The position numbers and the translations under genes are program-made. The notes below the pieces were generated by a model. It ran no database searches, was not told the DNA's origin, and saw only the letters and a list, made by a program, of their open reading frames with translations. This document shows, one piece after another, positions 13,282-34,328 of a stretch of DNA of 36,561 nt (the first letter of the stretch is position 1; the number at the start of each line of letters is the position of its first letter). This DNA comes from an uncultured Pirellulaceae bacterium (GTDB lineage Bacteria > Planctomycetota > Planctomycetia > Pirellulales > Pirellulaceae): assembly GCA_938010615.1 (NCBI GenBank), contig CALLUY010000123.1, forward strand, positions 1 through 36,561, written 5' to 3'.

Positions 13282-13527
13282 GCTTTGAAGTTGCGCACTT
13301 TTCAGTCACGAAGTGACGACATGTATTAGCCATGGACGCAAGTCCGTGGTTAGGGTTAATGAACCGCCGCAGAGTGCCGAAGGCACGGCAGGAGCCAAAC
13401 TTTGCACTACTGCAATTTTCCTGCCGTCCTTTCAGGACTGCCGATTAATGTATCAACGTTTCCATGGACTTGCGTCCATGGCTAATACATGCCGTGCTTT
13501 CAGCACTAAACAATGCAACTTCAAAGC
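13282..13527. repeat. 246-base repeat element with perfect 13-base terminal inverted repeats
   Basis: The ends are GCTTTGAAGTTGC (13282-13294) and its exact reverse complement (13515-13527). Inside are several palindromes: CCATGGACGCAAGTCCGTGG, GTGCCGAAGGCACGGCAG, CTGCCGTCCTTTCAGGACTG, CCATGGACTTGCGTCCATGG and GTGCTTTCAGCAC. The part at 13367-13510 recurs inverted at 28506-28650. It fills most of the 401-base gap between trkA and rimO; short open frames across it are repeat artefacts. Confidence 0.85.
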
Positions 13528-13656: not shown

Positions 13657-15090
13657 TTGTCCACTGATTTCCAATCCGTCCCCAAATCCAAAGACATCAA
13701 AGGAAGCTACTCCTTTATTAGTTTGGGATGCGCCAAAAACACCGTCGACAGCGAACGGATGATGGGCTTGCTGAAGCTCGATGGATACCAAATGGTTGCT
13801 GATCCGGTCGGCAGTGATTTTGTTATCGTCAACACATGCGGATTCATCGAGAACGCTCGTACCGAATCGTTTGCTGCCATCGATGAGATGTTGGAGCTAA
13901 AGAAAGAAGGCAAGACAAAAGGCGTTATCGTTTCCGGATGCTTGGCCGAACGACAGAAAGAACAACTTCTCGAAGATCGCCCAGAGATTGATTCTTTGGT
14001 CGGTGTCTTCGGTCGTGAAGAAATCACAAAAATTGCCGATCGGCTTATCGGCGATCTTGCAGAACAAAGAATCGTTTTCCAGCCGGCGCCGATTCGCGCT
14101 TTGCCTGACATGGATCGATTGCAGATTACGCCTCGGCACTTTGCGTATTTGAAAATTTCTGAAGGTTGCGATCGCCTCTGTACTTTCTGTGCCATTCCCA
14201 AAATGCGAGGCAAGCACGCGACGAAGCCGATGGAAAACATCATCGAGGAAGCTCAACAGCTTGCTGAAAATGGTGTTCGGGAACTGATCATCGTCGCTCA
14301 GGACACAACCTACTACGGAATGGATCTGTACGGCGAACCTCGCTTGGCTGAGTTACTGAAAAAGTTAAACGAAGTCGAAGGAATCGATTGGATTCGGCTG
14401 ATGTACTTCTACCCAATGTACATCGATGAGAAATTGCTGAAAACGATTGCGGCTTGTGAAAAGATTGTGCCTTACATCGATATGCCGCTACAGCACGCGG
14501 ACGACGTGATGTTGAAGCGTATGTCGCGTCGCGTGAATCAGGCTCAAATGAATGAGCAGATTGACATGATGCGAGCGTTGTTGCCGGACCTCGTGCTGCG
14601 GACAACGTTTATCACTGGTTTTCCAGGCGAAACGGAAGAACAGTTTCAAACGCTGGTTGAATTCGTTAAACGACATCGTTTTGAACGGATGGGCGTGTTC
14701 ACGTATTCGTACGAGCCTGATACGCCGGCCGCCAAAATTGAGGGGCATATGGATGACGCAATCAAAGAAGATCGTCGCGCTCGATTAATGCAAGTCCAGC
14801 AAGAGATCATGTTTGAATACAATCAGTCTCAGGTTGGGCGAGTGGTTGATATTATCCTCGACCAGCCAGTCGAAGGTCAGGAGGGAGCTTGGATCGGTCG
14901 CGGATCTTGCGATGCTCCTGATGTTGATGGCGTAACATTTGTTACTGAAACCGAACACGAGCTGAAGGCAGGCCAGATCGTCGAATGTGAGATTGTTGCT
15001 TCGCAGGGATACGATCTAATTGCTGCTGCCGTTGGAAAGCCACGAGATGCGCGTCCAATCAAGCGTGGTTTGAACATTCTGCCTTCGTAA
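13657..15090 (+). CDS. rimO: Ribosomal protein uS12 methylthiotransferase RimO
   Basis: Radical-SAM enzyme that adds a methylthio group to an Asp of ribosomal protein S12. Domain order is complete: the N-terminal UPF0004 domain with cluster cysteines C25 (SLGCAKN), C61 (NTCGFI) and C95 (SGCLAE); the radical-SAM core with C171, C175 and C178 in EGCDRLCTFCAIPKMRG; and a C-terminal TRAM domain (about 390-465). SLGCAKNTVDSE together with QDTTYYG and MQHAD-like PLQHADD separates RimO from MiaB. The 477-residue reading begins at TTG 13657; no better ATG or GTG lies before the first conserved strand, and no Shine-Dalgarno is visible, so the exact start is uncertain by a few codons. Confidence 0.95.
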   Translation: MSTDFQSVPKSKDIKGSYSFISLGCAKNTVDSERMMGLLKLDGYQMVADPVGSDFVIVNTCGFIENARTESFAAIDEMLELKKEGKTKGVIVSGCLAERQKEQLLEDRPEIDSLVGVFGREEITKIADRLIGDLAEQRIVFQPAPIRALPDMDRLQITPRHFAYLKISEGCDRLCTFCAIPKMRGKHATKPMENIIEEAQQLAENGVRELIIVAQDTTYYGMDLYGEPRLAELLKKLNEVEGIDWIRLMYFYPMYIDEKLLKTIAACEKIVPYIDMPLQHADDVMLKRMSRRVNQAQMNEQIDMMRALLPDLVLRTTFITGFPGETEEQFQTLVEFVKRHRFERMGVFTYSYEPDTPAAKIEGHMDDAIKEDRRARLMQVQQEIMFEYNQSQVGRVVDIILDQPVEGQEGAWIGRGSCDAPDVDGVTFVTETEHELKAGQIVECEIVASQGYDLIAAAVGKPRDARPIKRGLNILPS

Positions 15091-26301: not shown

Positions 26302-27009
26302 ATGACAGATAGTCCTGGCAAGCTTCGCGCAGAAGTTAACCCCAAATTCAAATACAAGTTTCTTCTGATCGGCTTGATCGCGCTTTGCGTCGGCTTGTAT
26401 CACTTTATTGATCCGATCGTCGTTTATCCAAACATGCGGCCCGTATCAGAAGCCTACGCGTCACTGCAAACGCAACTCAAAGGCGACGACGGAGCGTTGC
26501 AACGCCAATGGGCTACCATGACTAAAGAGAAAGGTTGGCCGGACGGGATTCCGAAATACTCGCCGCAAGAACTGACGACCAACACGATTTACAGTTACTT
26601 CATTGGCATTCTGTTTACTTTTGTGGCCGGCCTGCCCTGTCTGTTGACTTTCATACGCTGCCTTGGTCAGTGGATTTCAGTTGATGGTGACGGTCTTAAC
26701 AACGCAAAAGGTCAGAAAGTCGCTTTCGATCAGATCCAGAAAATCGACAAATCCAAATGGGAAAAGAAAGGCATCGCCAAGCTAATCTATTCCGATGGAA
26801 GCAATGAAAAGAACTTCGTTATCGATGACTTGAAATTTGATCGAGAAATCACCGATCAGATCATGGAGCTGGTTGAGGAGAAAGTCGGCGTCGACAAAAT
26901 TGAAGGTGCTCGATCTGAAGTCGAGTATCGTCTCGCTCGGGAAGAAGCCCTGCGAGCCAAAGAAGAGAAGTATCGCGAGGAAGAAGCCGAAAACGTAGAC
27001 GAGAAATAA
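26302..27009 (+). CDS. Two-helix membrane protein of unknown function
   Basis: 235 residues. Two hydrophobic segments are clear ([20 protein letters not shown], about 20-40; [20 protein letters not shown], about 95-115), with a 55-residue loop between them. The C-terminal half is soluble: [20 protein letters not shown] through [20 protein letters not shown] resembles a small PH-like beta domain, and the end is a highly charged helix ([20 protein letters not shown]). I do not recognise a characterised family. It is divergent from ppa, with 164 bases between the starts, and followed by a palindromic repeat and selC. Confidence 0.7.
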
Positions 27010-27105: not shown

Positions 27106-27169
27106 GATAGTCGCCTTTCGCTCCGCGAAAGTAGCGCCCTATGCTTCTTTCGCGGAGCGAAAGGCAACG
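27106..27169. repeat. Palindromic repeat, CTTTCGCGGAGCGAAAG family, copy 2
   Basis: Same layout as 2411-2475: ATAGTCGCCTTTCGCTCCGC, a spacer (GCCCTATG), and CTTTCGCGGAGCGAAAGGC. The outer arms match copy 1 closely while the spacer differs. It stands between the membrane-protein gene and selC. Confidence 0.88.
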
Positions 27170-27237: not shown

Positions 27238-27334
27238 GGAAGTGCTTGTACGGCTGGTGCCGGCCGCGGTCTTCAAAACCGTAGGGCTGCATGGAAATCA
27301 TGTGGTCGGTGGGTTCGATTCCCATGCACTTCCG
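27238..27334 (+). tRNA. selC: Selenocysteine tRNA (anticodon TCA)
   Basis: 97-base tRNA with the features special to bacterial tRNA-Sec: an 8-pair acceptor stem (GGAAGTGC with GCACTTCC), discriminator G and encoded CCA (27335-27337), anticodon loop CTTCAAA with TCA reading UGA, a long variable arm GGCTGCATG / CATGTGGTC around GAAAT, and T loop TTCGATT on a GTGGG/CCCAT stem. The 8+5 acceptor/T-arm length distinguishes it from tRNA-Ser and from a suppressor. It is flanked by palindromic repeats and stands 64 bases before an alcohol dehydrogenase gene; selA, selB and selD are not in the window. Known role: Ser is charged, converted to Sec, and inserted at UGA with SelB. Confidence 0.95.
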
Positions 27335-27344
27335 CCAAAACATT

Positions 27345-27401: not shown

Positions 27402-28433
27402 ATGAAAGCTCTTGAACTCGTCGGACCCTCTCTCTTTGAATTGGTCGACAAAGACGTTCCGCAGCCAGCTGCCAACGAAGTTTTGATTCGAGTCAAAGCC
27501 TGCGGGATCTGTGGAAGCGACATCCATGGAGCCAACGGAAGCAGTGGACGCCGCATTCCTCCAATCGTGATGGGACACGAAGCCGCTGGCGAAATTGCCA
27601 CGGTCGGAGAATCCGTTTCCAGCTACGCCGAAGGTGATCGAGTCACGTTTGACTCCATGGTTTATTGCGGCGATTGCCACTACTGTAACTTGGGTCGCAC
27701 AAATCTCTGCGAGACACGACAAGTCATGGGAGTTTCCTGTGATGAATTCCGTCGTCACGGTGCGTATGCTGAATACGTCTGCGTCCCTGAACGGATCGTC
27801 TGTCCGTTGCCAGAAGGATTGTCCTTTGACCACGCCGCATTTACAGAACCGGTTGGCGTCGCCGTACATGCCGTAAATCGAGCCAACGTTAGTCCGGGGG
27901 ATTCCGCGATTGTAGTCGGCGCCGGCCTAATTGGTTTGCTGGTCGTTCAGGCTCTCAAGAATGCGGGTTGCTCAACCATTATCGCACTTGATCTGGTTCC
28001 GCAGCGGTTGGACCTCGCCACTAAACTTGGCGCGACGCATGCGATGCTCGCCACGCAAGAAAACGTGGTCTCGGAAATTCACGAACTGACCGACGGACGC
28101 GGTGCGAATCACAGCTTCGAAGTCGTCGGAGCAACCAAGCCGGTTGAACTGGCGATCGACGGACTTCGTCGAGGCGGAACTTGTGTGCTCGTCGGCAACC
28201 TTGCCGCTGAAGTTACTTTCCCGCTCCAAAAAGTTGTCACGCGGGAACTCAACGTCGTTGGAACCTGCGGCATCAACGATGAAGTGCCTGAATGTGTTGA
28301 GCTCATCGCGTCAGGAAAGATTAACGTTGAGCCTCTGATTTCGGCCAGAAGTTCGTTGGACGAAGCCGCGGATTGGTTCGCGAAGCTGGAGGCTGGCGAT
28401 CAGCCGTGGTTGAAAGTCCTCGTTTGCCCGTAA
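27402..28433 (+). CDS. Zinc-dependent alcohol dehydrogenase (MDR family)
   Basis: 343-residue medium-chain dehydrogenase/reductase, cytosolic, NAD(P)-dependent. Catalytic zinc site: CGICGSDIHG (Cys about 39) and GHEAAGEI. Structural zinc lobe: YCGDCHYCNLGRTNLC. Cofactor fold: IVVGAGLIGLLVVQALKNAG with the acidic LDLVPQR, which favours NAD. The pattern is that of sorbitol/threonine-dehydrogenase-like enzymes; the substrate is not decided. The open frame begins inside selC, but ATG 27402 (MKALELVGPSLFELVDKDVP) is the family start. No in-frame UGA is present, so it is not itself a selenoprotein. Confidence 0.92.
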   Translation: MKALELVGPSLFELVDKDVPQPAANEVLIRVKACGICGSDIHGANGSSGRRIPPIVMGHEAAGEIATVGESVSSYAEGDRVTFDSMVYCGDCHYCNLGRTNLCETRQVMGVSCDEFRRHGAYAEYVCVPERIVCPLPEGLSFDHAAFTEPVGVAVHAVNRANVSPGDSAIVVGAGLIGLLVVQALKNAGCSTIIALDLVPQRLDLATKLGATHAMLATQENVVSEIHELTDGRGANHSFEVVGATKPVELAIDGLRRGGTCVLVGNLAAEVTFPLQKVVTRELNVVGTCGINDEVPECVELIASGKINVEPLISARSSLDEAADWFAKLEAGDQPWLKVLVCP

Positions 28434-28505: not shown

Positions 28506-28650
28506 TTTAGTGCTGAAAGCACGGCATGTTGTAGCCATGGACGCAAGTCCATGGAAACGTTAAAGCATTTATCGGAAGTCCTGAAAGGACGGCAGGAAAA
28601 TTGCGGTAAAAGCAAAGCTTGGCTCCTGCCGTGCCTTCGGCACTCTGCGG
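28506..28650. repeat. 145-base repeat, inverted copy of 13367-13510
   Basis: It reads as the reverse complement of 13367-13510 with roughly nine of ten bases kept, including the palindromes GTGCTGAAAGCAC, CCATGGACGCAAGTCCATGG, AGTCCTGAAAGGACGGCAG and GTGCCTTCGGCAC. It sits in the 537-base gap after the dehydrogenase gene. Confidence 0.88.

Positions 28651-31800: not shown

Positions 31801-34328
<2,528 letters not shown>

Follow-up and report, generated by a model that had tools for sequence, protein, structure and literature searches.

A selenocysteine tRNA gene and twelve predicted selenoprotein genes in an uncultured Pirellulaceae bacterium

The stretch of DNA analyzed here (36,561 nucleotides, hereafter the window) carries a gene for a selenocysteine (Sec) tRNA, called as tRNA-SeC by ARAGORN (Table 1). 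The Rfam model RF01852 matched positions 27238–27333 end to end (model positions 1–91) with 65.9 bits and an E-value of 1.9e-11 (gathering threshold 47), and it was the sole clan match kept at the site. The MFE fold ended in a 3' GCCA and reached −44.3 kcal/mol, giving a z-score of −2.81 against 200 shuffled sequences, one of which was equally stable. When the whole genome was searched with RF01852, ten matches were returned and only the window tRNA-Sec exceeded the gathering threshold, the other nine scoring 30.6 to 41.3 bits. The window tRNA itself is a standard member of the RF01852 type: the UCA anticodon, the 8+5 arms, the long variable arm and the G followed by CCA are common to both, with no noteworthy difference. 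The preliminary description, made from the letters of the sequence, had recognized a bacterial tRNA-Sec by its 8-pair acceptor, TCA anticodon, long variable arm and encoded CCA, and all of this was borne out by the ARAGORN call, the fold and the covariance model, no rival tRNA type scoring better at the site. Its end at position 27334 has to be corrected, as the gene runs to 27337 and the earlier range stopped at the discriminator G.

Table 1. Parts of the tRNA-Sec gene (positions in the window) and the predicted selenoprotein genes of the same genome; U in a motif marks the residue encoded by TGA.
Feature	Contig	Position	Strand	Sec motif	Basis or remark
tRNA-Sec gene with encoded CCA	C123	27238..27337	+		ARAGORN; Rfam RF01852, 65.9 bits; fold
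Acceptor stem, 5' strand, 8 bp (partner 27326–27333)	C123	27238..27245	+		MFE fold; sequence
TCA (UCA) anticodon, reads UGA	C123	27273..27275	+		ARAGORN, gene position 36
Long variable arm, 9-bp stem, 5-nt loop	C123	27285..27307	+		MFE and centroid fold
T arm, 5-bp stem (8+5 acceptor/T arrangement)	C123	27309..27325	+		MFE fold
Discriminator G and encoded CCA	C123	27334..27337	+		Sequence; ARAGORN end
FdhA	C154			CAATUHAP	TIGR01591, 816.7 bits
Prx-like with GPx domain (L025)	C170			WUPFC	
Prx-like (L028)	C83			WUPYC	
Prx-like with GH5 domain (L031)	C98			WURLG	
Prx-like	C93			WUPYC	
ResA-like with TPR (L036)	C77			WUAGC	
SelL-related type (L037)	C109			GUAFC	
Trx-like (L038)	C44			WUGAC	
Deiodinase-like (L043)	C162			TUPPI	
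SelW-like (L047)	C36			CGSU	
Thioredoxin	C46			SUGPC	
Thioredoxin_7-type (PF13899, L177)	C191			WUGWC	Frame leaves the fetched stretch

The tRNA-Sec gene stands alone, between a 235-aa ORF (26302–27009) for which no Pfam match was found and a gene for a zinc-binding alcohol dehydrogenase, which probably starts, as read from the sequence, at 27402. None of the selA, selB and selD matches of the genome profile searches fell on its contig, C123. Read-through TGAs were also ranked by the coding potential on either side, a homology-free procedure that covered 232,602 bases (the window and 13 stretches) and 730 TGAs. Seven of the best 45 TGAs lay in the window, and since their hairpin scores were only 0 to 11, the window shows no evident selenoprotein gene at this sensitivity (best 45 of 730); to that extent, the earlier statement that no gene here has an in-frame UGA holds. 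TGA is an ordinary terminator in this DNA too, being the stop of 3 of the 20 window ORFs taken as genes.

The DNA holds several other elements. A REP-like palindrome, TTTCGCTCCGCGAAAG, is arranged as inverted pairs, of which one stands directly upstream of the tRNA-Sec gene; its sites lie in the window at 2422–2467 and 27116–27162 and in other stretches of the genome (L020, 1163; L162, 108–173; L165, 14516), and with up to two mismatches it was found four times in the window against a chance mean of 0.06. The Rfam family Acido-Lenti-1 is represented by inverted pairs of hairpins approximately 100–115 bp apart within a conserved repeat of about 220 bp (window 13290–13520; L020, 16005–16225; L156, 7988–8220), whose three copies have a mean column identity of 83%. 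Single matches were placed on the minus strand at 28554–28509 of the window and at 14632–14587 of L165. The appearance of the repeat is more that of a palindromic mobile element than of a solitary sRNA. The window also holds a haem peroxidase gene of the catalase-peroxidase type (31848–34328, 826 aa), in which PF00141 is matched in two stretches.

The host genome is a 4.70 Mb draft of 221 contigs, 84% complete, with a contamination estimate of 1.54%. A tRNA-Sec had been expected to require selA, selB and selD, whose absence was named beforehand as evidence against the assignment; profile searches found all three in the genome. SelA, on contig C95, scored 458.5 bits with PF03841 and 552.4 bits with TIGR00474 (cut-off 267.9). 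SelB, on C121, scored 349.8 bits with TIGR00475 (cut-off 242.25), and its C terminus bears the winged-helix (SECIS-binding) domain PF09107 (57.4 bits). SelD, on C68, scored 262.6 bits with TIGR00476 (cut-off 125) and forms part of a 730-aa fusion, in which it follows a pyridine-nucleotide oxidoreductase domain that passes TIGR03169; its active site reads CLGC. Against TIGR04369, the model named 'fusion_not_SelD', this Ndh-SelD fusion reached 414.3 bits, short of the cut-off of 700. The dispersal of the tRNA and the three sel genes over four contigs is explained by the draft state of the genome. Genes for IS200-type transposases (Y1_Tnp) adjoin selB.

Among the SelB relatives compared (80 kept of 142 in named genomes), those from planctomycetes (L076–L108 and L124) were 45–71% identical to the host protein, and those from outside the planctomycetes 34–39%, led by Desulfobulbaceae at 38%. 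The preliminary description was therefore right in calling the genome planctomycete-like. Since the closest SelB proteins came from Pirellulaceae/Mariniblastus and other planctomycete MAGs, we infer that the host is a member of the Pirellulaceae near Mariniblastus. Full-length SelA (more than 400 bits) was present in 21 of 27 same-genus genomes, and two more gave incomplete matches (169.7 and 50 bits); in the remaining four no SelA above 25 bits was found by the profile search. Three of these four (G002, G003 and G004) still have TGA-containing AhpC-TSA genes among the matches listed; their lack of a SelA match is presumably due to incomplete assemblies.

Five family searches of the genome recovered 12 genes, each with a single in-frame TGA where the catalytic Cys/Sec is placed. 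The AhpC-TSA search gave 21 matches, eight of which had exactly one TGA, each at the catalytic position. The thioredoxin search gave 14 matches, three with a TGA (one of them counted before); the molybdopterin oxidoreductase and Rdx/SelW searches gave two matches each, one with a TGA in either case; and PF02627 (AhpD/CMD) had no match in the genome. UGA-containing genes elsewhere in the genome had been predicted in the preliminary description, and the formate dehydrogenase, peroxiredoxin and SelW-like families that it singled out each yielded one or more. Drawn from five family searches, the 12 genes are a lower bound. The second molybdopterin oxidoreductase of the genome (L024, contig C12, 963 aa) is free of TGA.

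The frames of the TGA genes contain no internal TAA or TAG, and the ResA-like gene on C77 ends in a terminal TGA after its internal one. Ten of the homology-found genes lay within the stretches ranked without homology, where they took ranks 2, 7–13, 18 and 44 among the 730 read-through TGAs; coding character was kept on both sides of the TGA in most genes scored. As had been foreseen for such genes, FdhA is cut in a plain ORF list into pieces of 361 and 542 aa. Upstream of fdhA lies a NuoE-NuoF-type fusion gene of 533 aa, with an IS200-type transposase gene between them (C154, L165 5189–10395).

By class, the predicted products comprise eight AhpC/TSA-type proteins (one of them deiodinase-like), a thioredoxin, a Thioredoxin_7-type protein, a SelW-like protein and the formate dehydrogenase alpha subunit, and 11 of the 12 have Trx-fold-type domains. 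L043 is a predicted deiodinase-like protein: it scored 44.9 bits with PF00837 (cut-off 27), carries Sec in a TUPP-type motif and lines up with the TCPP of type III deiodinase; with NF038285 it scored 79.6 bits, below the cut-off of 250. The SelL-related protein (L037) fell just short of NF040769 (110.5 bits, cut-off 120) and is treated as a close relative, not counted as a member, and L036 missed the WAxxUGC_long ResA-like model NF041054 (62.7 bits, cut-off 300). Several of the 12 products begin, as judged by eye, with what we take to be an export signal. Given these predicted signals, a large part of the set may work on the periplasmic side and counter oxidants or disulfides.

The regions downstream of the TGAs were scored for SECIS-like hairpins: the best hairpin 14–30 nt 3' of the TGA having G as the first or second base of its loop was compared with 2000 synonymous codon resamplings. 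The range was fixed after the sequences had been inspected, a circumstance partly answered by the Cys controls. In the host's own genes, 5 of 10 hairpins had p < 0.05 (Fisher combined p 4e-5). For the relatives' Sec sites the count was 9 of 9, with a Fisher combined p of 4e-10 that treats the sites as independent and is too strong because several of them are homologues of each other. The controls were 28 Cys codons from loci with a hand-entered motif (the TGA-free L062, L063, L064 and L072 were left out); none of the 28 had p < 0.05 and their combined p was 0.87. Own Sec sites differed from Cys sites with a Mann–Whitney p of 1.8e-4. GGU is common in SECIS loops; a G near the loop start was itself a condition of the score.

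The hairpins of L028, L036 and L043 were singly non-significant (p values between 0.13 and 0.15, with 0.14 the middle one), and those of the SelW-like L047 and the Trx-like L038 were at chance (p 0.41 and 0.61), with none convincing in this simple model. In a second test, with a range of 14–37 nt and 1000 resamplings, seven further Sec sites (two own and five from relatives) gave p values of 0.003–0.151, four of them below 0.05 (combined p 3.5e-6); four Cys homologues of the C98/C170 family gave 0.47–0.73 (combined p 0.86). The SECIS-like hairpins are supported collectively, not for each gene singly.

Covariation was examined in an alignment of six sequences of the C170 family and its relatives (L025, L031, L054, L055, L056 and L065). 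In two of the six stem pairs both partners vary (G-C/A-U and U-A/C-G), and 97.2% of cells pair. According to the alignment and the translations these changes are synonymous (Gln CAA/CAG and Leu CTG/TTG). The covariation score was 0.356 against 0.179 for shuffled alignments, a value that none of 500 shuffles attained; two of the five covariation measures were not unusual, both-side changes being matched in 179 of 500 shuffles and pair types in all 500. At the gathering threshold, Rfam returned Acido-Lenti-1 alone, and no SECIS family, from eight genome stretches (131,178 bases).

The TGA genes have counterparts in related genomes. Among the matches listed, all nine same-genus relatives examined have TGA-containing AhpC-TSA genes, with at least one to four each, as does one of five genomes that represent other families in the order. 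Nine of the relatives' TGA loci were read, and the TGA stood at the catalytic Cys in every case. TGA-free homologues carry Cys in the Sec column (TGGC in L066 versus TGGU; WCPIC in L059 and L069 versus WUPYC). A same-genus protein resembling L038, L061, has U in GDWUPPC and a downstream hairpin with p 0.03. In one Prx-like selenoprotein relative (L188, G010:C50), the match spans two TGAs, the second of which looks like a normal stop.

Two of the 12 genes encode fusions. The C98 protein (L031) joins PF00578 to PF00150 within a single uninterrupted 516-aa frame; its Prx-like part has U without a resolving Cys and is followed by the C-terminal GH5 domain, which is matched across the domain by solved structures of the cellulase type (8bn7, E 2.4e-109) and contains what we read by eye as the presumed GH5 catalytic glutamates. 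Sixty genomes, the host's own included, were searched for this protein. Near full-length copies, 57–69% identical, were present in the same-genus genomes G002, G013 and G014, and a domain search showed both domains in the G014 copy; a partial copy in the same-genus G012 falls short of the Prx position. In the other 23 same-genus and 32 more distant genomes the protein was not found at E 1e-10. At the Prx position the host has Sec, and G002, G013 and G014 have Cys.

The second fusion, the C170 protein (L025), consists of a Prx-like(Sec) part and a C-terminal GPx domain bearing Cys; the single-contig genome G025 encodes a homologue with Cys. In a tree of 15 rows, the clade of both fusion types was well supported (100/99); two Sec/Cys changes are needed, in a direction that the tree does not settle.

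Altogether, the tRNA-Sec, SelA, SelB and SelD are present in this genome together with 12 genes that have a single in-frame TGA at the catalytic Cys position, and positions 27238–27337 are almost certainly the working tRNA-Sec gene of a near-Mariniblastus member of the Pirellulaceae that has the full bacterial system for Sec decoding. Going by what is established for Sec in bacteria, SerRS would load the tRNA-Sec with serine, SelA would turn the serine into Sec with selenophosphate from the Ndh-SelD fusion, and SelB would bring the Sec-tRNA to UGA codons followed, approximately 15–25 nt downstream, by a SECIS hairpin. That Sec is actually inserted, and that the products function as their families would predict, are likewise expectations drawn from sequence.

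A UCA anticodon and UGAs inside open frames would also be expected if UGA were globally reassigned or suppressed (an alternative code or an opal suppressor) and the tRNA were an ordinary suppressor. We consider this extremely improbable: the frames have one internal TGA apiece, placed where a catalytic Cys rather than Trp or Gly would stand, TGA still terminates genes, the tRNA has the acceptor/T and variable-arm build of a tRNA-Sec, and full SelA, SelB and SelD are present. Nor does it seem credible, to a comparable degree, that pseudogenes or errors in the draft sequence account for the TGA genes, for which the fragmentation into 221 contigs and the 84% completeness might speak; TGA recurs in the same column of independent genomes, both from the genus and from further families of its order, the frames lack TAA and TAG, most genes scored have coding character on both sides of the TGA, and the downstream hairpin covaries synonymously.

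The location of the four components on four contigs might suggest that C123 or the sel contigs were binned from different organisms. Such contamination is very unlikely given the estimate of 1.54%, the nearest SelB proteins being those of Pirellulaceae and the full-length SelA in 21 of the 27 same-genus genomes. A narrower doubt concerns the genes themselves: the tRNA-Sec system could be real and some of the 12, above all L047 and L038, be decoded weakly or not at all, as the chance-level hairpin scores of these two would suggest. We regard this as rather unlikely, since in both genes the TGA falls exactly at the redox motif (CGSU and WUGAC) in a frame that is otherwise intact, and the L038-like protein of the same genus also has U with a better hairpin. 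The evidence is best accommodated by a functional tRNA-Sec serving a Sec-decoding system.

Signs of an aerobic life of the host are indirect, namely the catalase-peroxidase-type gene and a SCO1/SenC protein encoded in the genome. A wider interpretation, for which we see the chances as evenly divided, is that Pirellulaceae of the Mariniblastus area are selenoprotein-rich though probably aerobic, would use Sec mostly in exported thioredoxin-fold proteins, and have evolved two new selenoprotein architectures, a Prx-like(Sec)-GPx type and a secreted Prx-like-GH5 type (Sec/Cys). If it is true, the Prx-like-GH5 protein would, within the reach of our searches, be the first case of a selenoprotein with a physical link to polysaccharide breakdown, and the host lineage, if confirmed, would be a new place to test why Sec persists under oxygen.

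Selenoprotein-rich bacteria have been delimited as those with at least six genes, and Deltaproteobacteria, Clostridia and Synergistetes are the rich phyla named in the excerpts of PMC5029168; with 12 predicted genes the host falls within that range. According to parts of a 2026 review (PMC13188914), such bacteria are mostly anaerobes, aerobic bacteria rarely keep selenoproteins, and the largest bacterial sets comprise 57–63 genes, so the host's set is no record. A text search of the main text of that review gave no mention of planctomycetes. Within open-licence PMC we found no report of selenoprotein-rich Pirellulaceae, no Mariniblastus selenocysteine paper and no report of a Prx-like-GPx or Prx-like-GH5 fusion; the combination of Pirellulaceae and selenoprotein returned, by title and start of abstract, animal-feeding papers and none other, and a listing of titles for Planctomycetota and selenoprotein contained none on planctomycete selenoproteins. 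The apparent novelty lies in how large the selenoprotein set of this lineage is and in the two fusions. The value added lies in a hidden set of 12 predicted genes, of the kind that standard annotation cuts in two, in a lineage that the consulted parts of PMC5029168 and PMC13188914 do not name as selenoprotein-rich.

The domains that bear Sec fall into selenoprotein classes already known, with a reservation for Thioredoxin_7. The Prx-like UxxC, SelL-related, thioredoxin, SelW-like and deiodinase-like selenoproteins described in parts of PMC13188914 match those of the host in their domains and mostly in their Sec motifs; Thioredoxin_7 (PF13899, L177) is unnamed among the classes given there, and L031, with GH5 and no resolving Cys, and L025, with a Cys-bearing GPx domain, differ from them. 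The Ndh-SelD type with CxxC is known from marine metagenomes (excerpts of PMC2398784), where Pyr_redox_2 is joined to SelD as in the host's CLGC protein, and no difference was seen. The same excerpts list fusions from the GOS metagenome (Prx-PP2C, UGSC/Unknown_1, Prx-like 2/Secretin_N, Unknown_2/Prx-like 2 and Prx-like 3/Unknown_3), which like the two of the host combine a Trx-fold selenoprotein with a second domain; unlike the host's, they name no glycoside hydrolase or GPx partner. Among planctomycetes, Sec use has been reported for the Porphyra-associated P1 and P2 and for G. obscuriglobus and I. pallida (parts of PMC4807772). A complete Sec-insertion gene set is present there as in the host, and in P1, too, the Sec genes are not co-localized. 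The fdhA-nuoEF operon of P1 resembles the NuoE-NuoF-type fusion near fdhA in the host, where an IS200-type transposase gene has come to lie between the two, and six selenoprotein genes with antioxidant activity in P1 compare with at least 12 predicted selenoprotein genes in the host.
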